NCBI RefSeq assembly: GCF_000236685.1
Contig: NC_016633.1
Location: forward strand, 992,001 to 1,056,000
DNA length: 64,000 bases
Origin: Sphaerochaeta pleomorpha str. Grapes
GTDB lineage: Bacteria; Spirochaetota; Spirochaetia; Sphaerochaetales; Sphaerochaetaceae
Direction: 5' to 3'
Below the pieces are notes generated by a model. That model saw only the letters and a program-made list of their open reading frames with translations. It ran no database searches and was not told the DNA's origin. The position numbers and the translations under genes were made by a program. Shown one piece after another: positions 12,575 to 52,940 of the stretch (position 1 is its first letter; every line of letters begins with the position of its first letter).

Positions 12575-12575
12575 A

Positions 12576-36696: not shown

Positions 36697-38001
36697 ATGA
36701 AAAAACTAGGGTTGGGGCTATTTTTGTTGGTTGCATTACTATTGCCGACATTTGCTCAGGGAACTGCAGAGAAAACTGTAGACTTATCGGAGCCTGTAAC
36801 GCTAACGCTCTGGACACATGAAGATGCAAACAGGGCCGCATTGGAAAAAGGACTCATCGAGGAATTCACCAAACAGAATCCCAATGTTTCGGTTGATTAC
36901 CAGACCTACCCTTCAGGGAAAATGAGTGAACTGCTTACGGTCGCGTTCAGCGCCAACCAAGGCCCGGATGTTTTCAACCAGAGCCAATCGGTTATCAGGA
37001 GATTTGTAGTTGAAGGCCGTACCAGTACACTCAATCCTACCTGGATTGGCGCCAAGAGCACGAAAGAAGTGCTGGACAGGTATATTCCAGGTTCTCTGGA
37101 AGCAGTTATGCTCGATGGAGGAATCCATGGACTACCCCTTGAATACACAAACCTTTGTTTGTTTGTGAACAAACAGATTTTCCGTGAAGCAGGACTTGAT
37201 GCAGAAAAGGATTATCCAAAGACCTGGGAAGAAGTCATGTCCTTGAGTGAGAAACTTGTCCAACGGAATGGTGAAATCATTACGCGCCGAGGCTTTGACT
37301 TCCGCTATCCTTCCTATACCCAGCAATTTTTGCCAATGGTTGAACAATTGGGAGGAAAGCTCATCAGTGATGATGGTAAAAAAGCCGTTATCGGAGATGC
37401 TGCCTGGATTCAGTTCTTCGACTACATGAAAGCGTGGGGACCCAAAGGCAAAAACCTTGGAGGCCCTACCTATACTGCAGCAAGGAAAGCTTTTGACCTG
37501 AACGACAACCAGATTGCCATGAGTGAAAGCGGACTCTACCAGGAAGCAAGAATCCAGACTGCCAATCCTGAATTCTACAATAGCGGAGATTGGATGGTAG
37601 TCCCGTACCCACAATGGGAAAACGCAATCCAACATGTCGCCGGAAAAGTAAGTTGCCATTACTACCTCGTCAATGGACAAAGCTCAGAAGCAAAGCAAAT
37701 CTGGTCGTGGAGACTTGTCGATTTCATGCTGAGCCACGGAGAAGACTACCTTGCCAAAGTCAACCTTGTCCAACCAACGTACAAGTTGTTCAAGAGTAAA
37801 GCGTTTAGTGAGACTCCTTACTCATCCGTGTTTGAAGATGATATGAACTATGCCAATCTGGTATTCTATGCAGAAAACAGCGGTGCCATCAATGACAAGT
37901 TCAAAGCTGCCGTTGAGAGTTCTATGCTCCAGGGAAAAGACTCGAAGGAAGTTCTCGATTCTTTCAGGGCTTCTGTCCAAGATATTTTGAACGAAGAGTA
38001 G
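36697..38001 (+). CDS. CUT1-type ABC substrate-binding protein, candidate MurNAc/muropeptide binder
   Basis: A 434-residue extracellular solute-binding protein (family 1) with signal peptide KKLGLGLFLLVALLLPTFA and mature start QGTAEKTVDLSE. Typical features are LTLWTHEDANRAALEKGL, a hinge region with GLPLEYTNLCLFVNK and the C-terminal helical repeats. AGAGGTG precedes the ATG. It follows murQ by 60 bases with a short TCCTGC/GCAGGA dyad between them. Its place in the murQ operon makes MurNAc or a MurNAc-containing fragment the best ligand candidate; this is inferred from context, since CUT1 binding proteins do not reveal ligand by sequence. Confidence 0.82.
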   Translation: MKKLGLGLFLLVALLLPTFAQGTAEKTVDLSEPVTLTLWTHEDANRAALEKGLIEEFTKQNPNVSVDYQTYPSGKMSELLTVAFSANQGPDVFNQSQSVIRRFVVEGRTSTLNPTWIGAKSTKEVLDRYIPGSLEAVMLDGGIHGLPLEYTNLCLFVNKQIFREAGLDAEKDYPKTWEEVMSLSEKLVQRNGEIITRRGFDFRYPSYTQQFLPMVEQLGGKLISDDGKKAVIGDAAWIQFFDYMKAWGPKGKNLGGPTYTAARKAFDLNDNQIAMSESGLYQEARIQTANPEFYNSGDWMVVPYPQWENAIQHVAGKVSCHYYLVNGQSSEAKQIWSWRLVDFMLSHGEDYLAKVNLVQPTYKLFKSKAFSETPYSSVFEDDMNYANLVFYAENSGAINDKFKAAVESSMLQGKDSKEVLDSFRASVQDILNEE

Positions 38002-38065: not shown

Positions 38066-38971
38066 ATGAAAACCGCTTATATTGGAATTGAAAAGAAAAA
38101 AGCCCGTTGGGGATGGATATTCGTTACACCAGCAGTTCTTCTTTTTCTTTTGTTCTCGCTCTATCCAATGCTCAATGCATTCTTCAACACGTTCTTTACT
38201 ATGAAATTACTGTCTTTGAGAGCTCCTAAGTTTGTAGGTTTGAAAAACTATGCCTATATCCTACAGTCAAAGGACTTTTGGAACTCTGCTAAGGCCACAC
38301 TCTTTTTCACCTTCGGGGCCTTTGTTCCTTTGACCATCTTATCAATGGTCCTGGCTCTTGCTATTACCTCAAGGAAAAAATCTGGGCGAGCTATCCAGTT
38401 GATCATCTATTCCCCTGCCATTCTTTCCTCGGTAGTGGCAGCGTTGATCTGGATTTTGATATTCGACCCAAGGGGTTTGGGAAATTCAGTGCTTAATTTC
38501 CTCATGAGAAGCCCGGGAGTCGACCATCAGTGGCTGACAGACCCTGTAATGCTCAGAATCTGTACCAGCACCATCTATGTCTGGAAGTACGTTGGTTACT
38601 TTACTATCATCTTCGTGACAGGTATTGCCAAAATCCCTACTTCCGTACTAGAAGCTGCAACAATTGACGGAGCCCAAAAGCACCAGATAATCCAGCGGAT
38701 AATATTCCCACTGATAAAACCGACAACAGTGATGGTCTCTATCGTTGCAATGCTCAACTGCTTGAAATCCTTTTCTACCCAGTACCTATTCACCCAAAGG
38801 GGTGCGCCTCTGGAGCCGATCAATGTTATTACCCTCAATATCTATAATACGGCAATGCGTGATTTAAATATCAGCAGGGCTTGCGTAATGAGTGTCCTCT
38901 TATTCTTGATAATGATGGGGCTTACGCTCATCCGTCTGAAATCTTCCGAAAAAGAAACAGTATCCTACTAG
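38066..38971 (+). CDS. CUT1-type ABC permease (MalF/UgpA-like)
   Basis: A 301-residue membrane protein with six predicted helices and the binding-protein-dependent transport EAA loop EAATIDGAQKHQIIQRIIFP near residue 210. The first helix is LLFLLFSLYPMLNAFFNTFF. AGGAG precedes ATG 38066. It pairs with the next gene to form the channel for the ligand bound by the protein at 36697-38001. No ATPase gene is present in this operon, so, as is common for CUT1 systems, a shared MsmX-type ATPase encoded elsewhere must serve it. Confidence 0.88.
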   Translation: MKTAYIGIEKKKARWGWIFVTPAVLLFLLFSLYPMLNAFFNTFFTMKLLSLRAPKFVGLKNYAYILQSKDFWNSAKATLFFTFGAFVPLTILSMVLALAITSRKKSGRAIQLIIYSPAILSSVVAALIWILIFDPRGLGNSVLNFLMRSPGVDHQWLTDPVMLRICTSTIYVWKYVGYFTIIFVTGIAKIPTSVLEAATIDGAQKHQIIQRIIFPLIKPTTVMVSIVAMLNCLKSFSTQYLFTQRGAPLEPINVITLNIYNTAMRDLNISRACVMSVLLFLIMMGLTLIRLKSSEKETVSY

Positions 38972-38981
38972 GAGGCTACAA

Positions 38982-39830
38982 TTGAAAACTACAAAAACAG
39001 CTCTAGTTGGCAGCCTGGCAGTGAATATATTTCTCATAGTTTGCTGTTTGGTAATACTTGTACCCATTGCCTTTATGCTTACCGCATCATTTATGAGTCC
39101 AGCAGAGATATTCTCAATGCCCTATAGGTGGATACCGAAACAATTCCATGCAATAAACTATTTCAATGCCATTGCAGGGAATGACCGTTCCTTCATCTTT
39201 ATCCGTAATGTTATCAATTCGCTGGTAGTTGCCCTTAGCACAACTATTCTTTCGGTTATCGTTAGTGCCTTTGCTGGATACGGCTTGTCAAAATTTCAGT
39301 TCAAGGGAAGAACGACAGTATTCATGATGATCATGGGAAGGATGATGATTCCCTTTGAAGCCATCATGATTCCTATGTATATCACTGCAGTGAAACTGGG
39401 GATGCAAAACACCTATTACGGTTTGGTCCTCCCCTTCTTGCTGAATGCTTTCGGGATTTTCCAGATGAGACAGTACCTGATGTCCTTTCCAGACGACTTG
39501 TTGGATGCCGGTCGTATCGATGGGCTTGGAGAAATGGGTATTTTCTGGAAATTGGTTTTTGGAAACAGCACCCCGGCGATTGCAACGTGTGCAATCCTTT
39601 GTTTCAAAGGACAGTGGGACAACCTCCTTTGGCCGCTTTTGATTGCACAAAAAGAAACGATGAAAACCATTCCAACCTACATAGTCAAATTTACCGAAGA
39701 AAAAACCTCTGACGAAGGAGCCATGATGGCAGTAGCTGTCATTGCTTGCATACCAATCGTGATCCTCTTCACAACCATGTCTAAGTACTTTCTTGGCGGA
39801 AGTTCTATGTATAGTGCTGGTAAGGAATAA
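38982..39830 (+). CDS. CUT1-type ABC permease (MalG/UgpE-like)
   Basis: A 282-residue six-helix permease. The EAA loop is present in modified form as DAGRIDGLGEMGIFWKLVFG. Translation starts at TTG 38982, placed by a strong AGGAGG seven bases upstream; no ATG is available at a suitable place. It lies 10 bases after the partner permease and 2 bases before the HAD phosphatase gene. It completes a murQ-linked ABC importer that would replace the PTS transporter MurP used by enteric bacteria and Bacillus (context inference). Confidence 0.87.
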   Translation: MKTTKTALVGSLAVNIFLIVCCLVILVPIAFMLTASFMSPAEIFSMPYRWIPKQFHAINYFNAIAGNDRSFIFIRNVINSLVVALSTTILSVIVSAFAGYGLSKFQFKGRTTVFMMIMGRMMIPFEAIMIPMYITAVKLGMQNTYYGLVLPFLLNAFGIFQMRQYLMSFPDDLLDAGRIDGLGEMGIFWKLVFGNSTPAIATCAILCFKGQWDNLLWPLLIAQKETMKTIPTYIVKFTEEKTSDEGAMMAVAVIACIPIVILFTTMSKYFLGGSSMYSAGKE

Positions 39831-39832
39831 AT

Positions 39833-40429
39833 ATGAAATTATGCATTTTTGACATGGGTGGCGTACTGATCAGGAACTTTCATATAGCCCCGAAGCTTCT
39901 TCCCTTTCTAGGTCTCAAGACCAGTACCCTGCAAGAATATGACCCAAGACTCGGAACAGCCCTGACACTTCATAGCGAGGGAAAAATCAGTGAGGAAGAA
40001 TTTTGGAAATACTATAGGGAAATCACCCACAGGGAAGTCCCCCATATCCAAGGTTCCCTATTGGGAAAATTCTTCACCCCGACATTGGACGATCCAACGG
40101 TAGCCTTGGTAAAAAGGCTTAAGGAAAAGAATCTCAGGGTTGTTTGTGGAACAAACGTTATTGATGCCCATTTCAAGATTCATCATCAGCTCCACCAATA
40201 TGATATATTTGATGCTGTATATCCTTCTCATATCCTTGGGATTGCTAAACCTAAACTGGAATTTTTCCAGAGAATCTGTGAGGCTGAGCAGGTACATCCC
40301 GAAAAAGCTTTTTTCACCGATGATATGCAGGCAAATGTAGATGCTTCTCTGAAAGCCGGCCTAAAAGGATTTCGCTATGTTGATGCAAAAACCCTCGAAT
40401 CCCAACTAAAAGGACTCAATTTGCTATGA
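39833..40429 (+). CDS. HAD-superfamily hydrolase (YihX-like subgroup)
   Basis: A 198-residue HAD phosphatase-type protein. Motif I reads FDMGGVLIRN: the nucleophile Asp is present, but the second Asp of the usual DxD is Gly, as in YihX-type sugar-phosphate phosphatases. Motif II is CGTNVIDAH, motif III lysine lies in LGIAKPKLEFF, and motif IV is FFTDDMQANVDAS. It overlaps the epimerase gene by four bases (ATGA). Within a MurNAc operon it may dephosphorylate a surplus amino-sugar phosphate; this is a guess from position. Confidence 0.8.
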   Translation: MKLCIFDMGGVLIRNFHIAPKLLPFLGLKTSTLQEYDPRLGTALTLHSEGKISEEEFWKYYREITHREVPHIQGSLLGKFFTPTLDDPTVALVKRLKEKNLRVVCGTNVIDAHFKIHHQLHQYDIFDAVYPSHILGIAKPKLEFFQRICEAEQVHPEKAFFTDDMQANVDASLKAGLKGFRYVDAKTLESQLKGLNLL

Positions 40430-41514
40430 AATGTTCTTTAATACATCGAAAGATCCCGTTAAAGCATCCATTCAAAACCGCCTTGCGAACAGTATATTCT
40501 GTAGATGACCTGGTATTCAAACTTGAAACAGATGGCTTTGTAGGGTACGGAAGCGCATCCCCTACCGTCGCCATTACCGGTGACAGCATAGAAAAAATCT
40601 CTGATACGGCACGCTATAAAATCACACCTTCGCTGAGCAAAGGGGTGATGCATCAGAAACCGTCACCCTTGCCTTTCACAGGATGCACAAGTGCAAATTA
40701 CCTAGTTGAGACAGCCTTGTATGATCTCTGGGGAAAAAGGGAGGGGAAATCAATCGCCTCATTGCTTGGACAGTCTTATGACCATCTGCTTAGTGATATT
40801 ACAATCAGCATGAATAGTGCTGAGGAAATGGTTAAAGACTCCCAGCAAGCAATTGAAAATGGCTTCTCAATCCTTAAAATCAAAGTAGGCGGAGATCTCG
40901 AGGCTGATATGCATAGACTGGAAGCAATTTGTGCAGTGCTGCCAGATACGGTGAAACTTCGTGTTGATGCAAACCAAGGCTGGGATGCACCTACTGCGAT
41001 CAAAATTATCAGAGAGTACGAAAGGAAAGGCTATCCTATCGATCTGATAGAACAACCGCTTCCTGCAAAGGACCTGAAGGGAATGGCTGCTGTCAGGAAT
41101 GCCGTTGGACTTCCCATAATGGCAGATGAAAGTATTTTCAATTCCAACGACGTTAAAAAAGTCCTTGATTTGGGTTGCGCAGATATTATCAATATCAAAC
41201 TTGCGAAATGCGGCGGCCTTACAGAAGCCTTACACATGTGCTCCTTGGCCGAAGAAGCTGGGGTTTCCTGCATGCTAGGTTGCATGATGGAAGGTCCGAT
41301 AGGTATCTTGGCCGCTTGCCAGGTGGCTGCGAGCCAACCGATAATTACGAGAATAGACCTCGATGGCCCCATGCTTTATGAGAGATTGCCAGGAAGGTAT
41401 GCTACCCTTTTCAAGGGTCAGGATATATTTATTGGAGCTGCTCCGGGACTTGGCATCCTTGACTGTGCCTTGGAGGAGATCGGAAATGAAACACTATGGA
41501 CAGTAACGCTCTAA
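40426..41514 (+). CDS. L-Ala-D/L-Glu (dipeptide) epimerase, enolase superfamily
   Basis: A 362-residue muconate-lactonising-subgroup enzyme. The acid/base lysines are K153 (KIKVGGD) and K258 (NIKLAKCGG), and the metal ligands are D181 (DANQGW), E209 (DLIEQPL) and D234 (MADES). The DxD motif D311-L-D313 (RIDLDG) is the feature that binds the dipeptide ammonium group in characterised L-Ala-D/L-Glu epimerases. It converts L-Ala-D-Glu from peptidoglycan into L-Ala-L-Glu so that ordinary peptidases can use it. It overlaps its neighbours on both sides (4 and 19 bases), placing it firmly in the murQ operon. Confidence 0.9.
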   Translation: MKCSLIHRKIPLKHPFKTALRTVYSVDDLVFKLETDGFVGYGSASPTVAITGDSIEKISDTARYKITPSLSKGVMHQKPSPLPFTGCTSANYLVETALYDLWGKREGKSIASLLGQSYDHLLSDITISMNSAEEMVKDSQQAIENGFSILKIKVGGDLEADMHRLEAICAVLPDTVKLRVDANQGWDAPTAIKIIREYERKGYPIDLIEQPLPAKDLKGMAAVRNAVGLPIMADESIFNSNDVKKVLDLGCADIINIKLAKCGGLTEALHMCSLAEEAGVSCMLGCMMEGPIGILAACQVAASQPIITRIDLDGPMLYERLPGRYATLFKGQDIFIGAAPGLGILDCALEEIGNETLWTVTL

Positions 41515-42536
41515 ATCTCTATCTGCAGGAAATCCAGGACCAGGCTTCCCCCTGTGTCAGCGCTGTGGTACTCAGTGATTCTTCTGTGCTCTATCGAAAA
41601 GACCTCGGATACAGGCAACTTGTCCCACAAGCGCTTCCTCTTACAAAGCATACGCTTTTTGATCTTGCTTCCTTGACCAAGGTTGTCGGAACGTTGATGG
41701 CAACCCTTCGCCTCATGGAGAAAAAAGAGCTTTCTTTAGCTATGAACCTGGGTTTTCTGCTCTCTGATGCCGGAAATTACAAAGAAACAACCCTTGGTCA
41801 ATTGCTCACACACACTGGCGGATTTATCCCAGAAATGCGTTTGGAACTGTATCTGCAAGACTGCGAAGATGCCCTTACCTTCATGCTAAGCCAGCCGGTT
41901 CGATACAAACCCGGTACGAAAGTAGAGTATAGTTGCTTTGGCTATATAATCCTTGCCAAAATCCTGGAAAAAATAACCGGAATTCCCTTTGAAAAACTAG
42001 TCAAGCAAGAAGTCTCAGACCCTCTGGGAATGCATAAAACTGTCTTCAACCCTCTCTTGAAATTTCCCGAGGCTCAGTATGCAGCAACGGAAAGACTCGA
42101 AAACACCAATGAAATTCTCTGTGGAATCGTACATGACGAGAACAGCAGGTTCTTGGGAGGCATTGCAGGCAATGCAGGTTTATTTTCCACTGCAGAAGAC
42201 CTTACCCGGTTCTGCAGGATGTTCCTCTGTAAGGGACAAAGCGAACAGGGAACGTATCTTAGCACGGAAACAATGAATCTGTTGTTCAATCTCCAGACAG
42301 GAAACTGTGAAGGAGAAAAAAGAACGCTTGGTTTTAAAATTGCGGATGCTCGGCTCCTGGGAACAAATGCCAGTGCACAAGCAATAGGCCATACGGGATT
42401 TACCGGTACCTCGATTGCAATTGACCCTCTACTCAACAGGGCAGCCATTTTACTCTGTAACAGGGTTCATCCCTCAAGGAAGAATAACGTGCTGCTAGGC
42501 ATGAGGCAAGGATTCCATACCCTTGCCTTCCAATAA
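41496..42536 (+). CDS. Beta-lactamase-fold serine hydrolase, candidate cytoplasmic muropeptide amidase (AmiE-like)
   Basis: A 346-residue protein of the class C beta-lactamase/DD-peptidase fold. It has the SxxK motif S59-L-T-K62, YxN-type motif Y145-S146 (EYSCFGY), an HTGGF segment and the C-terminal GHTGFTG in the position of KTG. There is no signal peptide, so it is cytoplasmic. In Bacillus subtilis the MurNAc operon carries a relative, AmiE, an N-acetylmuramoyl-L-alanine amidase. The position here, overlapping the dipeptide epimerase by 19 bases, favours the same job: releasing peptide from MurNAc-peptides. An esterase or D-amino-acid peptidase role remains possible. Confidence 0.75.
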   Translation: MDSNALNLYLQEIQDQASPCVSAVVLSDSSVLYRKDLGYRQLVPQALPLTKHTLFDLASLTKVVGTLMATLRLMEKKELSLAMNLGFLLSDAGNYKETTLGQLLTHTGGFIPEMRLELYLQDCEDALTFMLSQPVRYKPGTKVEYSCFGYIILAKILEKITGIPFEKLVKQEVSDPLGMHKTVFNPLLKFPEAQYAATERLENTNEILCGIVHDENSRFLGGIAGNAGLFSTAEDLTRFCRMFLCKGQSEQGTYLSTETMNLLFNLQTGNCEGEKRTLGFKIADARLLGTNASAQAIGHTGFTGTSIAIDPLLNRAAILLCNRVHPSRKNNVLLGMRQGFHTLAFQ

Positions 42537-42550
42537 GGCAGCTTAGGTCC

Positions 42551-43435
42551 CTACCCTTTCACAGCCCCTATCATTACCCCTTTTACAAAGAACCGCTGCA
42601 AGAAGGGATACAGGACAATGATTGGAAGCGTGCTGGTAATGATGACTGCGCTCTTGATCGAGATGGCGATGGTTGTCTTGTCCCCGGAGCCGGCAGCGTC
42701 GCCGACCATGCTTGTCCCGTTTACGATATTGCGTAAAAAGAGCATAACAGGGAATTGCGAGCTCTTGAGGTAAATCAAACCATTGAACCAGTCATTCCAG
42801 AAAAACACTGCCGTGTAGAGTCCTACGGTAGCCAACGCTGCCCCGGAAAGCGGAAGGATTATCCGGCGCAGGATTCCAAAATAGTCCAGGCCATCGATGA
42901 TGGCAGCCTCCTCGAGGTCCAAAGGAATCGAGCGGAAAAAATTAATCATGAGAATCAGATTGAACTGATTGATAGCAAATGGAAGCAGCATGGCCCACCG
43001 GGTATTTATCAGGTGCAACGAGGAAACCAGCAGGTAGTTGGGAATAAGGCCCCCGGAAAAAAACATGGAAAATATGACCAGTTTCATGAAAAAAGCATTG
43101 CCCCTGAGCCTCGATTTGCTCAATGGATATGCAAAGAGAATCATCATTGTCAATGAAATAGCAGTTCCTAATACCGTATAGAAAATAGTATTGCCATAGG
43201 CATGGAAGAAATTCGGATAAGAAAAAATCTGTCGGTAGGACTCCCAGTTGAATCCTTTGGGTAACAGAAAAACCTCATTGTTTATAATTGCCTTGGGGCT
43301 GGAAAAGGAAAGGGCAATCATGTAGATAAACGGCGTCAGGCAAGCAAAAAGGGTGAACACCATCACCAGGTTTACCAAAGCAGTGAATACACTGTTCGAA
43401 CGTGTCTTGTACTCTCTCATATCAATATATCCCAT
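42551..43435 (-). CDS. CUT1-type ABC permease (LplC/YtcP-like)
   Basis: A 294-residue six-helix permease with EAA loop EEAAIIDGLDYFGILRRIILPLSG. The pattern SFSSPKAIINNEVFLLPKGF near the start is typical of the LplC/YtcP subgroup that works with large binding proteins. It is the last gene of a three-gene importer operon and overlaps its partner permease by 14 bases. It converges on the amidase-like gene with a 14-base gap. No ATPase gene is linked. Confidence 0.87.
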   Translation of the reverse strand: MGYIDMREYKTRSNSVFTALVNLVMVFTLFACLTPFIYMIALSFSSPKAIINNEVFLLPKGFNWESYRQIFSYPNFFHAYGNTIFYTVLGTAISLTMMILFAYPLSKSRLRGNAFFMKLVIFSMFFSGGLIPNYLLVSSLHLINTRWAMLLPFAINQFNLILMINFFRSIPLDLEEAAIIDGLDYFGILRRIILPLSGAALATVGLYTAVFFWNDWFNGLIYLKSSQFPVMLFLRNIVNGTSMVGDAAGSGDKTTIAISIKSAVIITSTLPIIVLYPFLQRFFVKGVMIGAVKG

Positions 43436-44357
43436 CGCCGGTAAGGCGCTTGCTCATTGCATTGCTTCCTGCAACCAGAATGATACCGATAATCCCGCTG
43501 AACAACCCAATTGCCGTCGCATACGAGTAGTTCTGGTTTGCAAGCCCGGTGCGATACACCAAAGTATCGATGATATCGCTGACCATACTGTTATCCGGCG
43601 TATACATAAGCAAGACCTTTTCGAACCCCAACGAAAGCAAACGGCCCACATTGAGTATCAACATGACCATGATAGTCGGCATAATTGAGGGAATCGTTAT
43701 AAACCAGATCTGCTGGGTCTTGTTTGCCCCATCGATCGTAGCGGCCTCGTACAGGTCGGCAGGGATTCCCGTAATGGCGGCCAGGTAGATAATTGCTGTC
43801 CAGCCTGTGTATTGCCAGGTGTCTACCAAGACATAGATCAAGCGGAAATACTTGCTGTCATTCATAAAGTAAATTGCATCCTGTCCAAAGAATTTGACCC
43901 TGAGAAGATTGAATATTCCGGTCGAAGGCGAAAGCAATTCACCCAAAATGGCAATTACAACAACCGTGGAAATAAACCGGGGCATATAGGAAACAGTCTG
44001 GACCAGTTTCTTGAAGGCGAGGTGATGAACCTCATTGACCAATATGGCAAAGAAAATGGGAATCGGAAAGTTGACGACCAGATTCAGAATGCTTAGCAAA
44101 AGCGTATTACGGAAGGCCCTCCAGAAAGCAGGATCCTGCCAGAAACGTTCGAAGTATTTCAAACCGACCCACTCGGTCCCGAATGACCCCATGCCTGGAC
44201 GATAGCGCCTGAAAGCCAGGACATTGCCAAACATCGGGACATACTTGAAAACTATAAAATAAACCAGAGGAATGACCATCATTGCATAGAGTTGCCAATA
44301 CCTGGCGAAATACTTTCGGTTGGACATCGTATTGCCACCAAGTTTCTGCTGTTTCAT
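43422..44357 (-). CDS. CUT1-type ABC permease (LplB/YteP-like)
   Basis: A 311-residue permease with about six helices and EAA loop YEAATIDGANKTQQIWFITIP. The N-terminal YVPMFGNVLAFRRYRPGMG is a hallmark of the LplB/YteP subgroup. GGAGG lies five bases before ATG 44357. It lies 77 bases after the binding-protein gene, with a perfect stem-loop in between. Subgroup members carry oligosaccharides or glycan fragments in known systems, which fits a peptidoglycan-fragment importer. Confidence 0.88.
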   Translation of the reverse strand: MKQQKLGGNTMSNRKYFARYWQLYAMMVIPLVYFIVFKYVPMFGNVLAFRRYRPGMGSFGTEWVGLKYFERFWQDPAFWRAFRNTLLLSILNLVVNFPIPIFFAILVNEVHHLAFKKLVQTVSYMPRFISTVVVIAILGELLSPSTGIFNLLRVKFFGQDAIYFMNDSKYFRLIYVLVDTWQYTGWTAIIYLAAITGIPADLYEAATIDGANKTQQIWFITIPSIMPTIMVMLILNVGRLLSLGFEKVLLMYTPDNSMVSDIIDTLVYRTGLANQNYSYATAIGLFSGIIGIILVAGSNAMSKRLTGDGIY

Positions 44358-44385
44358 CAAAACCTCCGTTGTTCGGCACTATACA

Positions 44386-44412
44386 ACTCTGCCGGATAGA
44401 ATCCGGCAGAGT
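44386..44412 (-). other. Perfect stem-loop between binding-protein and permease genes
   Basis: ACTCTGCCGGAT and ATCCGGCAGAGT form a perfect 12-bp stem with a 3-base loop, 22 bases after the binding-protein stop. There is no T-run on the minus strand, so mRNA stabilisation or partial attenuation is more likely than full termination. Confidence 0.8.
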
Positions 44413-44434
44413 ATAGACAAAGTGATGTAAAACC

Positions 44435-45982
44435 TTACAGGTTAGTGTTATAGAGCTCAGTAAACTTATCGATACCAAGAGTCTTCATTTCCTTGACATA
44501 GGAATCCCAGTCTCTGGTAATGTCCTTGTTACCGGTCAAAAAAGCAGAATTCCAGCGCTCGAAAGCATCGAAGAGCGGAGTCTGCAGTGTGCCTGCCTCC
44601 TCGGCCTGCATATCATCGAATTTCGGGGTCGGGGGAATAGCCTGGATTACATCACCCATTGCTTCGACTGCAGCGTTGATCTTTGCATAGTTCTCATCAT
44701 ATTTGGTCATCTCACGGGCATTGACCCAGACCATCTGGGTTACATCGCTTCCACAGCCGTATTTGACCTGGAGGCTCTTGTAGATACCCTCGGAGGAGTT
44801 GCGAATCTCATCAGAGAAAACAACCTTGCCATTTACCTGGCTATAGGTGGTTCCTTCCACGCCAAGGCACCAGAGTTTGGCATTGTCTGCAGAGAAGAAC
44901 ATCTCGTCGACAGTTCTGACCAACTGCTCGAAATCAGCACGTTTGGAAGTCTTGACCGGGAACATGATACCTGAACCAGTCTTGCTCTTCGGCTGGTGGT
45001 GTGCACCATCGGGACCGGCGAGGGCTGGATACATCTGGAGCTTGAACCCAGGGATAGTGCTTGTGGCGGTAACCCCTCCGATCTGGTCATAGTAGGCATA
45101 GGAAGCCATTGCCTTGCCGGTTGCCAGTTTCTGGGACCATTTGTCCCCGTCAATCGGTTCAGCCATCTCAGGATCGAGCAGGCCTTCAGCATAAAGCTTA
45201 TGGAAGAAGGTCACATAGCTCTTGTACTTATCGCTGATTGCCCCCGCAAAATACTGTTTCTTCGTATAGTCCCAACTCAGCGTATTGCTTCCGCTTGCAC
45301 CATTCTTTCCAAGGGATATGCCCCAGGAAGGCATAGTCATACGATAGAGTACGCGAGGTCCCGCAAGGATGGTAAGGGGATAGGAAGAAGGGTCATTCTG
45401 CTTGAAAACCTTCAATACAGTATAGAGGTCATCAAAAGTCTTGGGCACTGCAAGGCCATATTTTTCCAACAGGTCCTGCCTGAGGATCAAACCGCCATCA
45501 TAGAAAGGAACATCAAACAATGCAGGCATGAAATAACGCTTGCCATCTTTCAGCTTCAAAGCATTGACATCGTCTTCAAGCTTGAACTCTTTCACCCGTT
45601 CGTTGAAGTTGGGTGTCCACGCTGAATAGTCACTGATCGGAACCAACGCACCATTAAGTGCAAGGGCAGCGTTCTCTCCCTTGGTCGATTGATACAGGAT
45701 GACATCCGGGGCATTCGTGCCGGTATTCAGTGCCAAGGAAACCTTGGTCTGGTAATCGGCAATGGGAATGACCTCAAAACTGACATCTGCATTCACCCGT
45801 TTCTGGACCTCGGTTACAGTCAACCAATCCTGCTTGAACGGCAAGGTTGCGTTGTCGCTGTAAAACACGGAGAATTTAATCGGGGCGGTACTACCACCCT
45901 TTGCTTCCTGAACACCCCCGGCAAACAGGAAAAGCGACGTTGTCAGACAAATCACAAGAGAAACCAACAGGGTTTTCTTCAT
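44435..45982 (-). CDS. Large CUT1-type substrate-binding protein (LplA-like)
   Basis: A 515-residue extracellular binding protein with signal peptide KKTLLVSLVICLTTSLFLFA followed by GGVQEAKGG. There is no lipobox cysteine, so it is probably a soluble periplasmic protein. Features such as FSVFYSDNATLPFKQDWLTV and DVILYQSTKGENAALALNGALVPIS shortened to STKGENAALALNGALV match the large LplA/YtcQ class. It is the first gene of an importer operon in the middle of the peptidoglycan-catabolic genes; candidate ligands are MurNAc-GlcNAc, anhydro-muropeptides or glycan fragments. The ligand is inferred from context only. Confidence 0.82.
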   Translation of the reverse strand: MKKTLLVSLVICLTTSLFLFAGGVQEAKGGSTAPIKFSVFYSDNATLPFKQDWLTVTEVQKRVNADVSFEVIPIADYQTKVSLALNTGTNAPDVILYQSTKGENAALALNGALVPISDYSAWTPNFNERVKEFKLEDDVNALKLKDGKRYFMPALFDVPFYDGGLILRQDLLEKYGLAVPKTFDDLYTVLKVFKQNDPSSYPLTILAGPRVLYRMTMPSWGISLGKNGASGSNTLSWDYTKKQYFAGAISDKYKSYVTFFHKLYAEGLLDPEMAEPIDGDKWSQKLATGKAMASYAYYDQIGGVTATSTIPGFKLQMYPALAGPDGAHHQPKSKTGSGIMFPVKTSKRADFEQLVRTVDEMFFSADNAKLWCLGVEGTTYSQVNGKVVFSDEIRNSSEGIYKSLQVKYGCGSDVTQMVWVNAREMTKYDENYAKINAAVEAMGDVIQAIPPTPKFDDMQAEEAGTLQTPLFDAFERWNSAFLTGNKDITRDWDSYVKEMKTLGIDKFTELYNTNL

Positions 45983-46158
45983 AGATCCCCTCCTTCAGTA
46001 TTCGAAAAACCGGAAAACCGGTTTCAGCGTGCATACAAACAAGGAATTTCTAAAAATACAACTCGATACAGTCACCTAGGTAAAGTGCTTCCATCACCAT
46101 TATAATCACCGAAAGCAAAAGCTATCAACAAACATTTTTACTTTTCACAATTTGCACC

Positions 46159-46175
46159 ATGAAAATTATTTTCAT
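46159..46175. promoter_or_regulatory. 17-bp palindrome ATGAAAAT-T-ATTTTCAT upstream of the LplA-like operon
   Basis: Perfect 8-base arms around one base, directly beside the anmK stop codon and about 180 bases upstream of the LplA-like gene. It resembles the 18-bp palindrome at 27640 and the ATGAAAATTTTT motifs at 35668 and 50690, so it may belong to a shared operator family. Confidence 0.4.
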
Positions 46176-47363
46176 TTAGAGAAGTATTTTACCCATAACC
46201 ACAGCATGAGAGGCGCCTGTAGCCCCAATCAGGGTATTTGGCCTTCCTGCAATAGCCTCATTGGCTAGAACCGCAAAGGCTACAGCCTCCTTGCTATCGC
46301 TATTGAATCCAAGGTCCTCTTGCGTATTGACGGGCATATGGGGCAAAAGCTGCTTCAGTTCATCCATCAAAAAAGAATTGTGAATTCCCCCTCCCCCCAC
46401 GGTCAACCGGTCGACAGGAACAGGGCAGAAATGCGAGAGGGAATAGGATATGCAAAATGCCGTATAGTAGGTTGCCGAGGCTATGATGTCGAAAGGAGAA
46501 AGACCAAGGGCAACTCCCTGGTGCTCAACCAAATCTACAAAGGGTATTCCATACCGTTCTCGCCCAGTTGTCTTGGGAGGGAACCGGGTAAGGTACCCGT
46601 CGTTTTCCAGCATCCACTGAACCAAGGAATTCGAAATCTTTCCCTTCCTCCCTAAGTCACCGTTTTTATCATAGCTCTCTACCCCTGAGGAATACCGATA
46701 GACCAATTCGTCAATAACCATATTGCCGGGACCCGTATCAAAGGCAAGGATTTGTTCGGGAAGCGCATGTTTTGGAATAACGGTAAGATTCCCGATACCA
46801 CCAAGATTCTGCAGGGCAACCGTCTCCGTTTCGCTTCTATAGAGAAGATACTCCGTATAGGGAACCAAGGGTGCCCCCTGCCCCCCGGCTGCCATATCAC
46901 GGACACGGAAGTCACTCACTACAGGACAACCGAAGGCTTCACTCAAAAGCGAGGCTTCCCCTAGCTGCATGGTTGCCGAGACCGGCTTCCCAAAATAATC
47001 TTGCGCCTCGGGGATATGATAGAACGTATGGCCGTGCGACCCGATGAGATCAATTTCACTGGTGGAAACCTTTGCTTCTTTACACACAGCCTTGGCTGCT
47101 GAAACAAACAACTGGCCCAACGTAAAATTCATCAGGCAGAGTTCCCTGCTCCCACCTTCTTCACCACGTGATAGTGTCAGCAATCTTGCCCTGAACTTTT
47201 TTTCATACGGAATGGAAACAAACGCGAGTTCTGTTACTTTCAGCTTCGTTCCACGTCCCTCGATGGCAACCAAGACGGCGTCTATCCCGTCACAACAGGT
47301 TCCACTCATCAACCCAATACAAAGTTTTCTTGATTTGGAAGCCAATGGCTGTACGGTGTTCAT
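46176..47363 (-). CDS. anmK: Anhydro-N-acetylmuramic acid kinase
   Basis: A 395-residue ASKHA-fold kinase that opens the 1,6-anhydro ring of anhMurNAc while phosphorylating it to MurNAc-6-P, which MurQ then uses. Diagnostic sequences are GLMSGTCCDGIDAVLVAI (phosphate 1), IGSHGHTFYH, QLGEASLLSE, FDTGPGNMVIDE and TVGGGGIHN. The start is ATG 47363, whose ATGA overlaps the stop of the upstream GNAT gene; the open frame beyond it lies inside that gene. Its presence implies that lytic-transglycosylase products (anhydro sugars) are consumed. Confidence 0.94.
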   Translation of the reverse strand: MNTVQPLASKSRKLCIGLMSGTCCDGIDAVLVAIEGRGTKLKVTELAFVSIPYEKKFRARLLTLSRGEEGGSRELCLMNFTLGQLFVSAAKAVCKEAKVSTSEIDLIGSHGHTFYHIPEAQDYFGKPVSATMQLGEASLLSEAFGCPVVSDFRVRDMAAGGQGAPLVPYTEYLLYRSETETVALQNLGGIGNLTVIPKHALPEQILAFDTGPGNMVIDELVYRYSSGVESYDKNGDLGRKGKISNSLVQWMLENDGYLTRFPPKTTGRERYGIPFVDLVEHQGVALGLSPFDIIASATYYTAFCISYSLSHFCPVPVDRLTVGGGGIHNSFLMDELKQLLPHMPVNTQEDLGFNSDSKEAVAFAVLANEAIAGRPNTLIGATGASHAVVMGKILL

Positions 47364-47839
47364 TCCTTTGCCCCCAGATAATCCTTGTAGATTCCCGGCT
47401 TTGAATCTTCGATCAAAGTAGCTGCTACACACTTCTCATAGAATTGTTGCGGCCCGACCCCTCCGATAATGGCATAGGCATACCCCTCGTCATGCAAGGC
47501 ATGCAAGCTACGGAGCAAAAGTGCTTTGCCAATCTGTTTTCCCTGCTCACTGTCCAAAACCCTTGTAGGACCAAAAAAATCAGGGGCGGTCGCGTTATAG
47601 CAGGCATAGCCGACAATTTCTTTGCCCCTGGTGGCTACGAATAGGGAAATGGGAGTATGGGAAAAACAAACATCGGCTTCCCCTGAGGCGGAAAGCGAGG
47701 AATGGGTCTTAACCCATTCCACTATACGCGGTTTATCAGGAGCCATTGCCCGTCGGATGGTTATCCCTTGGTTCTCCACTGCAGCAAGAACTGGGGATAC
47801 GGGCGGAAGTGCATAGAGTTTAACCAACATATCGCTCAT
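47360..47839 (-). CDS. GNAT-family N-acetyltransferase linked to anmK/nagZ
   Basis: A 159-residue GNAT with core strand SLFVATRGKEIVGYACYN, acetyl-CoA loop DSEQGKQIGKALLL and C-terminal GPQQFYEKCVAAT. AGGAG precedes ATG 47839, and the gene overlaps anmK by four bases and follows nagZ by 9 bases. Such tight placement suggests it acts in amino-sugar or muropeptide handling, for example re-acetylating de-N-acetylated sugars or acetylating a released peptide, but no substrate can be read from the sequence. Confidence 0.72.
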   Translation of the reverse strand: MSDMLVKLYALPPVSPVLAAVENQGITIRRAMAPDKPRIVEWVKTHSSLSASGEADVCFSHTPISLFVATRGKEIVGYACYNATAPDFFGPTRVLDSEQGKQIGKALLLRSLHALHDEGYAYAIIGGVGPQQFYEKCVAATLIEDSKPGIYKDYLGAKE

Positions 47840-47848
47840 CAACGTCTC

Positions 47849-49378
47849 CTATAGTTGGACCGGAAGACTTCCGGTTGCCTCAATCTCTTTTCTCAATAAT
47901 CTTGACAGGGCCTCAAAGCAGTCCTGGGTATATTCATAGGCGGCTATCGCAGTCACCCCCTCCCCTACCAAGGCAAGGTCATAGGGGTTTCTCAAAGCAA
48001 TACAGGTCACAGGGATCTTCCCTTTGACAAAAGCATGTACCAGATCAATCTGTCCAGGGCGCAGATGTGCATTGTACGTTCCGATAATGATGGAGGTTGC
48101 ATCTTTTCCCGTTGCCTTGATCTTGTCTATTTCCGTCGAATCAGGGTTGTCAGAGCAGACAAAATAATCGCCTCCAAGCAATTCGGCCATAGAGGAGGCA
48201 AAAAGCGGCACATTCCGCTCATTGGACACATTGGTTGCCAAAAAACACCTTGGCCCGACAAAATAGGGGTTGGTGCCGAGCGGTAGGATGTTTCCCCTGA
48301 CCAAGGTCAACGACTTTTCGCGTAGCTTCTGGGCAGTTGCCTTATGTTCTTTTGAACCCACCTCAGAAAAGGGTACATTTTTTTCCAGGGAAAGCATCAC
48401 CTTGGCCTTGATGATTTTGTCAGTCGAAGCAGTAAATTCACTTTTGTCCAGTCTCCCCGTGGCAAGGGCCTCCTTGACTAACGCTATTGCCTGTATTGCC
48501 AATTCCACATGGTGGCTTATACAGACAAGGTCTACCCCTGCTTGCAGGGAAGCCAAAGAACCCGAAGCAGTGCCGTAATAGTTTGCAATCGCCTGCATTT
48601 CCATGCAATCACTGAAAACCAGGCCTTTGAAGCCCATTTCTTTTTTCAGAAGGTCCGTAAGGATCGAACGGCTCATCGTTGCAGGCACCTTTTCTTTTTC
48701 GAGGGCAGGAAACAGGATGTGGCTGCTCATAATCCCCTGGACACCGGCAAAGGTTGCCAACCTGAAAGGATACAGATGTTCCTCAAGGGCCTGCAGGTCA
48801 CCTGCTACCCAGGGAAGGTCGAGATGGGAATCCAAATGGGTATCCCCATGACCGGGAAAGTGCTTGGCTACGGACATTACCCCTTCGCTCTGCAACGCTT
48901 CGACCATGGCACACCCAAAGGAAGAAACCGTCTTTTCGGAATCGCCGTAACTTCTGACCCCGATAACCGGATTATTTTTGTTGCTGTTTACGTCAAGGCA
49001 GGGAGCAAGATCGCAGTTGATACCCAAGGCTCTCAGTTCCCGCCCGGTCAGGGCCCCGGCTTCAAAAACCGAGTTCACCTCGCCTGTGGCCGATAATGCC
49101 ATTGCCCCAGGGACATTGGTGCAGTCACTGCTCAGGCGGGTGACCATACCTCCTTCCTGGTCTATGCAGATCAAGGCAGGCGTGCCACATTCTTTCTGCA
49201 CAAGCTCTTGAATATCCTGACAAAGTTGCCTTACCTGCCCTTTGCTCTCGATATTCCTGGCAAAGAGAATGATATTCGCTATCTTATAGGTATGTACCGC
49301 TTCCTTGAAGGATTCATCCAAGGAAGTACCAGGGAAACCGCAGACAAAATGCTGTCCTATTTTTTGTGCATCATCCAT
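47849..49378 (-). CDS. nagZ: Beta-N-acetylhexosaminidase, GH3 family (NagZ, two-domain type)
   Basis: A 509-residue glycoside hydrolase family 3 enzyme that removes GlcNAc from peptidoglycan fragments. The signature KHFPGHGDTHLDSH carries the catalytic Asp-His dyad (D183 and H185) and the nucleophile is D257 in VFSDCMEM. After the GH3 barrel (about residues 1-330) a C-terminal domain of about 150 residues follows, as in the Bacillus YbbD/NagZ and unlike the short enteric NagZ. There is no signal peptide. The start is ATG 49378 with AGGAG eight bases upstream. It lies between namZ and the GNAT/anmK pair. Confidence 0.92.
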   Translation of the reverse strand: MDDAQKIGQHFVCGFPGTSLDESFKEAVHTYKIANIILFARNIESKGQVRQLCQDIQELVQKECGTPALICIDQEGGMVTRLSSDCTNVPGAMALSATGEVNSVFEAGALTGRELRALGINCDLAPCLDVNSNKNNPVIGVRSYGDSEKTVSSFGCAMVEALQSEGVMSVAKHFPGHGDTHLDSHLDLPWVAGDLQALEEHLYPFRLATFAGVQGIMSSHILFPALEKEKVPATMSRSILTDLLKKEMGFKGLVFSDCMEMQAIANYYGTASGSLASLQAGVDLVCISHHVELAIQAIALVKEALATGRLDKSEFTASTDKIIKAKVMLSLEKNVPFSEVGSKEHKATAQKLREKSLTLVRGNILPLGTNPYFVGPRCFLATNVSNERNVPLFASSMAELLGGDYFVCSDNPDSTEIDKIKATGKDATSIIIGTYNAHLRPGQIDLVHAFVKGKIPVTCIALRNPYDLALVGEGVTAIAAYEYTQDCFEALSRLLRKEIEATGSLPVQL

Positions 49379-49410
49379 CACACTTCTCCTAACATAGTGC
49401 CACTGACCGG

Positions 49411-50556
49411 TCATCGATAGAGATGATAGATTTCTTTCTCTTTGGCAAAGACACTGCTCTGCTCAGAGCATTGGTTCAGTAGTATTTCAATATTTGTGGT
49501 TACCACATCCTGCGAGGTAAGGCCCATCAGGTTTTCAAAAGGACTTCTCTGCGTAGGGGCCAAAGGGGGCAGGAATGCAAAATCCTCGCTATAGAGACGG
49601 GCAATGAGTTGAATCAGGCGCAAAGCACTTTCAACCGGGCGAAAAGCTTCCTTGTCCAGGACATGGGCATACAGCCCCTTGCAGGTTTCACCCTGGTATT
49701 TACTCGCAGTAGGGGTGAAGTAAGCGGGGGTGAATACGATTCCTTTGAGGTGGAGCTCATTAGCTGCCCTACAGAGGGGCTCGGCATGGAGAAACGGGGA
49801 CCCGATTAGTTCGAAAGGACAACTAGTCCCTCTGCCCTCACTTAGGTTCGTACCCTCAAACAAGCACATGCCGGCATACAACAAAGCACTCTCGAAATGC
49901 CCGATAGCAGGGCTCGTCATAATCCAAGGCAATCCAAGGCTGTCGAACAAGTCGCTCCTTTTCCATCCGTTCATCGGGATAATGGTCAGCTTGCATCCAT
50001 ATTGCAGTTCAGCGTTAAGGAGAAGTGCCAGCTCGCCAATGGTTAAACCATACCTGACAGGCAGGCTGTACGGTCCTACAAAACTAAAAAATTCCGGGGC
50101 GAGCCTATTTCCCTCGACGACCACACCCCCCAGCGGATTGGGCCTATCGAGAACGATGAGGTCCTTGCCAAAGTGGGCACAGTCCTCGATAAGATTTTTT
50201 AAGGTAGCGATGTAGGTATAGAAACGCAGGCCAAGATCCTGAATGTCAAAGAGTATGGCATCGATGCCGGAAACCATATGTTCGGTGAGATGCTGGCCAT
50301 CTTTGCGGTACAGGCTGAAAAGAGGAATGCCATCCACAAATTCTGCATCTTCATCGATGCAGGAACCAGCTCCTATTTCACCGCGGATACCGTGTTCCGC
50401 CCCAAAGAGGGCAACCAAATCATATTGTGTCCTGACTACAGAAAAGGACGAGACAAACGAGGTATTCATGGCACTGTTGTTCGTCACCAAGGCAAGTCGC
50501 TTATGGTTTAAAAGCGAGGAATAGTCTCCTATCCGGTCCAATCCAAATTGAATCAC
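49411..50556 (-). CDS. namZ: Exo-beta-N-acetylmuramidase NamZ (DUF1343)
   Basis: A 381-residue protein of the DUF1343 family. Bacillus subtilis NamZ (YbbC) of this family splits MurNAc from the non-reducing end of peptidoglycan chains. Landmarks are LVTNNSAMN, LFGAEHGIRGEIGAG, DAILFDIQDLGLRFYTYI, VLDRPNPLGG and GTNLSEGRGTSCPFELIGSP. No signal peptide is present. The start is GTG 50556, preceded by AGGGAG at eight bases; the open frame continues to TTG 50619, but that part has no family similarity. It stands next to nagZ as in the Bacillus MurNAc operon. Confidence 0.9.
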   Translation of the reverse strand: MIQFGLDRIGDYSSLLNHKRLALVTNNSAMNTSFVSSFSVVRTQYDLVALFGAEHGIRGEIGAGSCIDEDAEFVDGIPLFSLYRKDGQHLTEHMVSGIDAILFDIQDLGLRFYTYIATLKNLIEDCAHFGKDLIVLDRPNPLGGVVVEGNRLAPEFFSFVGPYSLPVRYGLTIGELALLLNAELQYGCKLTIIPMNGWKRSDLFDSLGLPWIMTSPAIGHFESALLYAGMCLFEGTNLSEGRGTSCPFELIGSPFLHAEPLCRAANELHLKGIVFTPAYFTPTASKYQGETCKGLYAHVLDKEAFRPVESALRLIQLIARLYSEDFAFLPPLAPTQRSPFENLMGLTSQDVVTTNIEILLNQCSEQSSVFAKEKEIYHLYR

Positions 50557-51062: not shown

Positions 51063-51935
51063 CTATTTCTTTTGTTTTTCCCCAGGGCTGTTGGCATGGG
51101 TGACAGCCTTCCATGTGGCAGTAATAAACTGCCCTGCATCGCCCTTGTTCACGATTAGGCTGCTGTACAGGATATCGACTACTACCAGCTGGTTAAGCCT
51201 GGACAACGTAGCCCCTTGTCGATAAAGAGCCTCACTATCAGGTACGGTCAATACAATATCGGCAAGCTTGGAGAGAGAATTCCCCCCTACCCTGGTTACG
51301 GCAATGATGATAGCCCCAGCTTTCTTGGCTTGCTGGGCAACCTGGCGCATGGTTTTGGTTTCCCCCGAGTAGGAAAACACAATGCATACACTTTTATTGT
51401 TCAATGCACAGGCATTTACGATCTGCAAGTCAGGTTCATTGGGGAAACTTGAATAGATGCCAAGCCTTCCCAGTTTCTGGTACATATCCATTGCAGCAAG
51501 CGCCGATGCCCCGATTCCTGCAAGCAATATCTTTTCCGCATTTGCCAAGGCTTCCACGGCCAGTTCAACCTGCCGGGTTGACAACACACTTTTCAGCGAA
51601 GTTATGCTTTCACAGACAGTGTCGACCATCATGGAGGTTATCGATCCGGCCCCATCCGTTTTGGAGAGGTCGAACATAAAGGGCCCCTCAGAAGGGGGAC
51701 TATTTCCATACACTTCCTTAGCAAGGGCAAGTTTCAAATCACTATAGCCGTCGAACTTCAGTCGTTTGCAGAGCCTTACCACTGCTGCGGTACTGCTTCC
51801 ACTCTCCTGAGCCAGTATGGTAATGCTATGTTGGACTGCATCCTGTGGATTTTCCAAAAGATATTTTGCTACCTTCCTCTCCGAGGGGGACAGATACGAC
51901 AGAGCTTGTTTTAATAATGTAGTACATCCTTCCAT
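51063..51935 (-). CDS. RpiR-family transcriptional regulator, MurR-like
   Basis: A 290-residue regulator with an N-terminal RpiR helix-turn-helix (SPSERKVAKYLLENPQ, then ILAQESGSSTAAVVRLCKRL) and a C-terminal SIS sugar-phosphate-binding domain (LLAGIGASALAAMDMYQKL, CIVFSYSGETKTMRQVAQQA). In E. coli, MurR of this family senses MurNAc-6-P. Neighbours namZ, nagZ, anmK, murK-like and the murQ remnant support the same role. The ATG at 51935 has no Shine-Dalgarno, and the predicted -10 (TATGCT) ends seven bases before it, so the message may be leaderless. Confidence 0.86.
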   Translation of the reverse strand: MEGCTTLLKQALSYLSPSERKVAKYLLENPQDAVQHSITILAQESGSSTAAVVRLCKRLKFDGYSDLKLALAKEVYGNSPPSEGPFMFDLSKTDGAGSITSMMVDTVCESITSLKSVLSTRQVELAVEALANAEKILLAGIGASALAAMDMYQKLGRLGIYSSFPNEPDLQIVNACALNNKSVCIVFSYSGETKTMRQVAQQAKKAGAIIIAVTRVGGNSLSKLADIVLTVPDSEALYRQGATLSRLNQLVVVDILYSSLIVNKGDAGQFITATWKAVTHANSPGEKQKK

Positions 51936-51942
51936 ACTGCAC

Positions 51943-51970
51943 AGCATAGCATATTGTATAATTTTTTCAA
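51943..51970 (-). promoter_or_regulatory. Shared 28-bp promoter/operator element, copy 2 (murR-like gene)
   Basis: Plus-strand sequence starts AGCATAGCATATTGTA and ends AATTTTTTCAA, differing from copy 1 at two positions. On the minus strand it gives TTGAAA-16-TATGCT immediately before the regulator ATG. Its outer end also forms an inverted repeat with the following TTGAAAAAAATT (arms around AAATAA, 51961-51988), a possible site for autoregulation between the divergent regulator and kinase genes. Confidence 0.7.
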
Positions 51971-52025
51971 AAATAATTGAAAAAAATTGTTGCACATTCC
52001 CATTAGGTCAATCAATATTAATTGC

Positions 52026-52940
52026 ATGAAAGGTTTATTTTACGGTCTTGATGGCGGAGGGACCCGTTGCCGGCTGGCAATATGGGACGAAAACAAACGG
52101 CTGATTTATAAAGATGAGGGCGAAAGTTCAAATGTCTATGCAGTAGGATTCGAGCAAGCCAAATCAAATGTACGCTCTTTGCTCGAAAAAGCTGCAAAAA
52201 ACCCTTTGGTAGAGGTCAGTAAAATACGAGCCCTCTGCTTTGGTAGTGCCGGCCTTGCCCGGGATACCGAAAGAAGCCGATGGCTCAGCTTCTTTGAAAG
52301 TCAATTTCCAGAACCGATTGCCCTGTTGCTCTGCACTGATGCAGAAATTATGCTCGCTGGCTCTCTGAACGAACCAACCGGCATTGGGTTGATCGCAGGG
52401 ACCGGTTCGATCTGCATAGGAAGAAATGAGGACGGGGTTGTCGTACGTGCAGGGGGCATGGGCACAGCTCTCGGAGATGAGGGCTCGGCCTGGTGGATTG
52501 CAAAAGAAGCGGTCAGAAGAACCCTCAGGAGCAAAGAAAACCGAGACCTTCCCACTACTATGGAAACAACGATTCACGCTTTCTTCCACCTTGAATCCCT
52601 CTATGACTGCATACCCTTCTTTAATGACAAAAGCCTTACCAAATCTGCTGTGGCTGAGTTTGCACCGTTTGTATCGGTTGCTGCAGAACAAGGAGACCAA
52701 TTGGCCTTGGCAATTCTCGAAGAGGCAGCCACGGAATTGGCATCGCTGGTCAATTCCGTGGAGTCAAGACTCGGAGGGCAATTTTTGCATCGCATCACCT
52801 TGGGTGGCGGGGTCTTGGAACATGACAAGCTTATCAGAAAATTATTCCTGGAAAAACTTACCCCGACCTTGATCGTATGCCCAAGCAGGGGAACTGCCCT
52901 CGACGGGGCAGGAATACTTGCATTTTCACTGGTACAATAA
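52026..52940 (+). CDS. BadF/BadG-type sugar kinase, candidate MurNAc/GlcNAc kinase (MurK-like)
   Basis: A 304-residue ASKHA-fold kinase. The phosphate-1 loop is GLDGGGTRCRLAIWD, phosphate-2 is LIAGTGSICIGRN, and GDEGSAWWIAKEAVR is the typical BadF/GlcNAc-kinase motif. MurK of Clostridium acetobutylicum, which phosphorylates MurNAc and GlcNAc, belongs to this family. With no PTS here, a kinase of this kind is needed to make MurNAc-6-P for MurQ. It is divergent from the MurR-like gene. The start is ATG 52026, without an obvious Shine-Dalgarno; an upstream in-frame TTG at 51987 is unlikely. GlcNAc kinase alone is the alternative. Confidence 0.82.
   Translation: MKGLFYGLDGGGTRCRLAIWDENKRLIYKDEGESSNVYAVGFEQAKSNVRSLLEKAAKNPLVEVSKIRALCFGSAGLARDTERSRWLSFFESQFPEPIALLLCTDAEIMLAGSLNEPTGIGLIAGTGSICIGRNEDGVVVRAGGMGTALGDEGSAWWIAKEAVRRTLRSKENRDLPTTMETTIHAFFHLESLYDCIPFFNDKSLTKSAVAEFAPFVSVAAEQGDQLALAILEEAATELASLVNSVESRLGGQFLHRITLGGGVLEHDKLIRKLFLEKLTPTLIVCPSRGTALDGAGILAFSLVQ

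Follow-up and report, generated by a model that had tools for sequence, protein, structure and literature searches.

In which compartment does a bacterium release N-acetylmuramic acid (MurNAc) from peptidoglycan fragments? The question is raised by a locus of Sphaerochaeta pleomorpha str. Grapes encoding homologues of NamZ, NagZ and AmiE, which lies in the window analysed here (64,000 nucleotides, spanning 992001-1056000 of a 3.59 Mb genome assembled in one contig). The founding study of NamZ, Mueller 2021, reportedly describes a Bacillus enzyme working outside the cell. The B. subtilis gene order is murQ-murR-murP-amiE-nagZ-namZ (ybbI-ybbH-ybbF-ybbE-ybbD-ybbC), and AmiE and NagZ of this species carry out sequential extracellular degradation; NagZ and AnmK of E. 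coli work in the cytosol (PMC5061867). A 2026 review calls NagZ and NamZ of the Bacillus route extracellular and allows for a cytosolic NagZ (PMC13204101), and B. subtilis namZ and nagZ deletions are cited as releasing fragments into the medium (PMC10936207). In the Sphaerochaeta locus, none of the three enzymes has a signal peptide. We propose that it probably encodes a MurNAc-salvage route of the Bacillus kind that runs in the cytosol and is supplied by the ATP-binding cassette (ABC) importer LplA-LplB-YtcP, with a MurK-like kinase, AnmK and MurQ acting downstream.

A sequence-only reading of the locus had noticed that all three enzymes start without a signal sequence. This holds for every in-frame start back to the preceding stop, so that no alternative upstream start encodes a real signal peptide. 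The AmiE-like frame has only two codons between the preceding stop and its ATG at 41496. NagZ has 16 codons upstream of ATG 49414 before a stop, and its better-placed start is ATG 49378, with AGGAGA ahead. NamZ starts at GTG 50556, preceded by GAGGGAG; the sole other upstream start, TTG 50619, adds MYRCIAVQGNLFYHTQEG..., which has no hydrophobic core. Near the N-termini, Kyte-Doolittle hydropathy averaged over 10 residues peaks at 0.88-1.43 for NamZ, 1.22 for NagZ and 1.07-1.93 for the AmiE-like protein; in the two binding proteins LplA and SBP2, both with a signal, it reaches 2.91 and 3.12 at the annotated starts. The stretch that scores 1.93 (ASPCVSAVVL, from residue 17 of the AmiE-like protein) follows an n-region without positive charge and was called by neither of our scans. 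In alignments with the proteins of L085, a Bacillus locus resembling that of B. subtilis, window NamZ begins at residue 37 of its secreted counterpart (41% identity) and window NagZ at residue 60 of the secreted NagZ (30% identity).

Signals were called with a home-made scripted scan, not SignalP. The strict version called 6/6 binding proteins and 0/39 cytosolic proteins, and the looser one, on which the survey rests, called 13/13 and 4/98, two of the four being one gene fetched twice. A first scan was replaced because Tat-type signals and signals with short n-regions escaped it. Three loci received their label by hand: signal-less for L034 and L022, secreted for L147.

The start of NamZ can also be judged from the DNA ahead of it. 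A promoter-like element, TTGAAA-16-TATGCT, lies at 50673-50646 on the minus strand, and similar stretches precede namZ in the related loci L032, L163, L165 and L166. Given this conservation, and if transcription starts just behind the element, at most about 27 codons could precede GTG 50556, and these contain one start only, the TTG already mentioned. The element shares 26 of 28 bases with a stretch upstream of rpiR (51970-51943, minus strand); it has two matches in the window and none in 100 shuffles. The near identity of the two stretches suggests joint control of namZ and rpiR. A search for a palindromic RpiR operator gave nothing above chance.

NamZ (49411-50556, minus strand) is a member of the NamZ exo-beta-N-acetylmuramidase family by both of its domains, PF07075 (230.2 bits, cut-off 26.9) and PF20732 (142.5 bits, cut-off 25). 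The EHG motif and other NamZ columns are invariant across 19 aligned homologues, and the protein is predicted to release MurNAc from the non-reducing end. NagZ (47849-49378, minus strand) is a beta-N-acetylglucosaminidase of the GH3 type with a PF00933 domain (274.8 bits) and with the Asp-x-His loop and nucleophile motifs KHFPGHGDTHLDSH and VFSDCMEM, which we take to be catalytic. The AmiE-like protein (41496-42536, plus strand) is a serine hydrolase of the beta-lactamase/PBP4B superfamily (PF00144, 174 bits) with SLTK, YSC and HTG motifs.

The same arrangement recurs in the genus. NamZ was found in 12 of the 21 genus genomes searched, and all 12 loci were read (the window, L032-L034 and L163-L170), with L170 cut at the NamZ N-terminus and some others cut by contig ends. 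Nine of the 11 readable NamZ starts have no signal in the loose scan. The two flagged ones (L034, L165) were judged spurious: in each, the candidate signal is encoded ahead of the conserved start, and in L165 its frame crosses the promoter element. None of the 11 genus NagZ read has a signal peptide. The usual cluster comprises the kinase, RpiR, MurQ, NamZ, NagZ, a GNAT-like protein, AnmK, LplA, LplB and YtcP, some loci being incomplete, and namZ directly precedes nagZ wherever both were read. The AmiE-like gene stands outside this conserved unit, since it sits in a separate plus-strand operon with a dipeptide epimerase gene and was found at none of the remaining 11 genus loci, some of which are truncated where a contig ends.

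The importer genes encode an LplA-like binding protein with an N-terminal signal sequence (44435-45982, PF01547 59.6 bits), an LplB-like permease (43422-44327) and a YtcP-like permease (42551-43435), all on the minus strand; the two permeases are open reading frames named by resemblance. They lie beside namZ-nagZ in most genus loci read and in L042, which belongs to another family of the class. Within the genus LplB is 82-88% and YtcP 80-85% identical, and the three proteins together span 77-88%, the lowest value coming from an incomplete LplA in L168; in L036 and L042 the identities are 64-73%. The enzymes are less conserved, with 42-56% for NamZ and 54-62% for NagZ, and this difference suggests that the transporter has a fixed ligand. 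A phosphotransferase system (PTS) EIIC protein is found in none of the 21 genus genomes, the present one included, which means that there is no importer of the MurP type. The earlier suggestion that the binding protein and its permeases fit the uptake of wall fragments is supported by this linkage. Its companion, that the imported fragments are sizeable, finds no backing: nothing in the data shows a size above that of a disaccharide. The nearest solved relatives of LplA include 5gx8 and the alginate-oligosaccharide binders AlgQ1/AlgQ2. A structure model of LplA proved unusable (mean pLDDT 45).

Signal-less NamZ extends beyond this one genome, and relatives in other bacterial groups look alike. 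PF07075 is present in 112 of 392 genomes of the phylum. Our survey joined selected loci of this search with the 80 best relatives among the matches listed in the genome collection, and is thus non-random; once the duplicates L001, L015, L016 and L117 were dropped it held 150 NamZ, or 148 after two truncated genes were left out. In the loose scan 65 of these 148 are signal-less and 83 carry a signal. The NamZ label agrees with that of a NagZ within 8.5 kb in 37 of 38 cases (16 both signal-less, 21 both secreted) and with that of AmiE in 20 of 21, L090 being counted twice in both tallies. Neighbours were tallied for the 88 NamZ whose flanks extend 5 kb in both directions, 32 signal-less and 56 secreted. 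CUT1 ABC permeases lie beside 19/32 signal-less versus 3/56 secreted NamZ, AnmK beside 11/32 versus 0/56, a kinase beside 13/32 versus 4/56 and MurQ beside 13/32 versus 8/56. The presence of NagZ is alike in both groups (12/32 and 16/56, p 0.48). Window NagZ has 14 cysteines, and the median cysteine content is 1.76% in 24 signal-less NagZ versus 0.00% in 22 secreted ones, a comparison into which the eight later loci of the genus entered as signal-less by default.

In eight genomes of the phylum, two NamZ copies were read of which one is secreted and the other signal-less (L061/L062, L067/L066, L058/L057, L027/L060, L030/L070, L051/L012, L052/L013 and L053/L010), and both compartments may therefore be used in one cell. 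In a further genome (G256) three copies were read, all signal-less.

An unrooted tree was built from 124 of the 148 NamZ, leaving out near-copies, short and weak proteins. The signal label needs 6 changes on this tree versus about 41.7 in shuffles, of which starred branches force only 2. Window NamZ falls into a clade of 14 rows, all signal-less (SH-aLRT 97), which also holds six Paenibacillus proteins, four from the family and three that are second copies in genomes of the same class. The six Paenibacillus loci have MurQ, permeases and a kinase in 6/6, RpiR and AnmK in 5/6 each and NagZ in 2/6; the binding protein and kinase of one of them, L073, were identified by Pfam. With so few switches the neighbour and label tallies are not independent events, and raw Fisher values are to be read in this light.

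The remaining genes of the locus supply candidate downstream steps. The assignments of MurQ, the MurNAc 6-phosphate etherase (35719-36636, plus strand; TIGR00274 360.9 bits, cut-off 302), and of AnmK, the anhydro-MurNAc kinase (46176-47363, minus strand; PF03702 299.4 bits and the NCBIfam PRK09585 models), are secure at the level of sequence. The MurK-like protein (52026-52940, plus strand) is a BadF-type kinase whose best match among five solved relatives is the N-acetylmuramic acid/N-acetylglucosamine (GlcNAc) kinase 8zo3 (E 5.4e-32); its homology places it with the MurNAc kinases, and its substrate is predicted. The RpiR/MurR-type regulator (51063-51995, minus strand) matches NCBIfam RpiR-type models, all below cut-off, and an rpiR-type gene adjoins murQ/namZ in several genus loci. 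A second importer of the sugar type stands beside MurQ, with the binding protein SBP2 (36697-38001, signal sequence, PF01547 100.9 bits) and two permeases (38066-38971 and 38982-39830; open reading frames whose homologues lie between MurQ and NamZ in Paenibacillus loci). It is followed by a HAD-family phosphatase-like protein (39833-40429, PF00702 50.7 bits), an L-Ala-D/L-Glu dipeptide epimerase-like protein of the enolase superfamily (40426-41514; 1jpm, E 4.8e-74, NCBIfam models below cut-off) and the AmiE-like gene. This operon, all on the plus strand, occurs only in the window among the genus loci read.

Between nagZ and anmK lies the gene of a GNAT acetyltransferase-like protein (47360-47839, minus strand; PF00583 21.9 bits, cut-off 20.7). 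It was found in 13 of the 16 loci compared, with 62-77% identity, and matches no NCBIfam family and no solved relative significantly. A role as glucosamine or muramic acid N-acetyltransferase would fit. The Paenibacillus locus L073 also has a GNAT protein, together with a PIG-L deacetylase.

We propose that the LplA-LplB-YtcP importer would bring in small pieces of peptidoglycan, probably GlcNAc/MurNAc disaccharides or short oligosaccharides that may or may not carry peptide; this genome has a second sugar importer in addition. Inside the cell, NagZ would remove non-reducing GlcNAc and NamZ non-reducing MurNAc. Here, the AmiE-like hydrolase could strip off peptides and the dipeptide epimerase could handle L-Ala-D-Glu. 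MurNAc would be phosphorylated by the MurK-like kinase and anhydro-MurNAc by AnmK, and MurQ would convert MurNAc-6-phosphate to GlcNAc-6-phosphate. The RpiR/MurR-type regulator, with a promoter matching that of namZ, probably controls the set. The idea that degradation has moved into the cytoplasm survives in part: all three enzymes are predicted to be cytosolic, but a move implies a direction, and the unrooted tree cannot tell loss of the signal from its gain. Only NamZ and the AmiE-like protein are unusual in this location, since a cytoplasmic NagZ is the ordinary state in recycling of the E. coli type (PMC5061867).

Several observations weigh against this proposal. Activity, location and transport are all predictions from sequence. 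In one locus (L115) NamZ is secreted and NagZ signal-less; in another (L088) NamZ is again secreted and AmiE scored as signal-less. A CUT1 permease is lacking near 13, and NagZ near 20, of the 32 signal-less NamZ with full flanks. In the eight genomes with both kinds of NamZ, the signal-less copy has more cysteines than the other in 2, fewer in 4 and equally many in 2, and cysteine content was thus not upheld as independent evidence for NamZ. A single switch, placing all signal-less rows together, is not rejected (AU test, p 0.060). Independent switch pairs number 1-2 on starred branches and 5 at most; a test on such pairs was dropped as they are too few, and phylogenetically corrected significance cannot be claimed with only 1 or 2 contrasts. 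No ABC ATPase turned up for either importer, and no search aimed at one was made.

Could the locus instead serve ordinary recycling of the Gram-negative type, with cytosolic NagZ, AnmK and MurQ, NamZ as a side enzyme for occasional MurNAc-ended fragments, and import by an AmpG-like permease? Recycling of the E. coli type normally has NagZ and AnmK in the cytosol (PMC5061867). MltG, which could generate anhydro ends, is present in this genome and in 19 of the 21 genus genomes, and this genome encodes one transpeptidase-domain protein, so turnover of the cell's own wall is possible. The consistent position of namZ directly before nagZ, and a linked lplABC that is the most conserved part of the locus, speak against it, and we consider this scenario quite improbable. 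The opposite idea, of a genus without peptidoglycan synthesis that must consume foreign wall, was rejected in that form in view of the same two proteins; a foreign wall is a possible source that is not required. Sphaerochaeta are reported to lack penicillin-binding proteins altogether, yet there is this one transpeptidase-domain protein. In the family, the transpeptidase domain is found in 34 of 61 genomes and the class-A transglycosylase domain PF00912 in 0 of 61; SLT occurs in one of the 21 genus genomes, which is not the present one, and SpoIID in none of the 21. Environmental spirochaetes are described as feeding on dead biomass in a paper whose available text does not contain the word peptidoglycan (PMC6052044).

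That LplABC imports another substrate and merely adjoins muramyl genes, the AmiE-like protein being an unrelated esterase or D-peptidase, is unlikely. Solved relatives of both binding proteins are diverse, and the AmiE-like protein has 30% identity to the protein in the AmiE position of L085, a best NCBIfam match of 158.8 against a cut-off of 385 and no counterpart in the other genus loci read. On the other hand, lplABC accompanies namZ-nagZ-gnat in genus loci as well as in one genome from a different family, the AmiE-like gene lies behind a dipeptide epimerase gene, and its GHTGFTGTS block is shared with homologues at other NamZ loci. A missing signal peptide is no proof of location, the more so when the prediction is a script, and the enzymes might be exported without a classical signal or act after lysis, leaving degradation outside. 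We regard this as very improbable: such export would be needed for each of the three proteins and for their relatives too, signal absence goes along with ABC permease, AnmK and kinase genes, and window NagZ and the AmiE-like protein have 14 and 8 cysteines, unlike most secreted homologues.

The proposed cytosolic route shares the NamZ, NagZ, AmiE-like, MurQ and RpiR/MurR-type families with the B. subtilis cluster. The latter uses the PTS importer MurP, and the Bacillus locus L085 indeed has a PTS EIIC/EIIB protein; the window and genus instead have enzymes without signal peptides, no PTS EIIC, ABC importers, a MurK-like kinase and AnmK. S. aureus takes up MurNAc-GlcNAc intact and cleaves it in the cytosol with MupG before MurQ acts (PMC6262408), which resembles our proposal in that a fragment enters intact and is split inside ahead of MurQ. 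There, uptake by MurP is coupled to phosphorylation and MupG, a DUF871 protein, acts as a 6-phospho-muramidase, whereas here import would occur by an ABC transporter without phosphorylation and cleavage by NamZ, in line with the lack of PTS EIIC in the 21 genus genomes. The E. coli AmpG-NagZ-AmpD-AnmK-MurQ pathway likewise has cytosolic NagZ, AnmK and MurQ (PMC5061867); the window adds NamZ, the AmiE-like hydrolase and an ABC importer within the cluster. In Agrobacterium, the ABC transporter YejBEF-YepA imports muropeptides and feeds cytosolic NagZ (PMC9790009), but YejBEF belongs to the peptide-type transporters and has a different kind of binding protein, whereas the window importers are of the sugar type and NamZ is present. 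We found no published cytosolic NamZ in the literature searched, which leaves most subscription papers outside, and the available text of a mycobacterial paper does not mention NamZ (PMC13041923).

Elsewhere in the window, three D-Ala-D-Ala-ligase-like ATP-grasp reading frames (below NCBIfam cut-offs) accompany a KamA-family radical-SAM aminomutase (TIGR00238, over cut-off), at 8643-9656 (plus strand) and 10611-11591, 11588-12661 and 12576-13925 (minus strand). The product of this set may be a modified dipeptide or amino acid.

Taken together, the chances seem to us evenly balanced that these loci represent a further salvage architecture besides AmpG recycling and PTS-MurP, in which intact glycan fragments enter by sugar-type ABC import, paired cytosolic NamZ and NagZ perform all glycosidic cleavage, and the compartments switch as a set. 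It would be widespread in Sphaerochaeta-like and Treponema-like spirochaetes (the latter term being our inference for family f3 of the class), Paenibacillus and several uncultured Bacillota. The signal-less NamZ of other groups suggest another way of recovering cell-wall sugars, and since the signal-less branch is large, many bacteria probably keep MurNAc release inside the cell, with no sugars lost to neighbours. Loci with signal-less NamZ would thereby mark ABC transporters that are expected to carry peptidoglycan saccharides.

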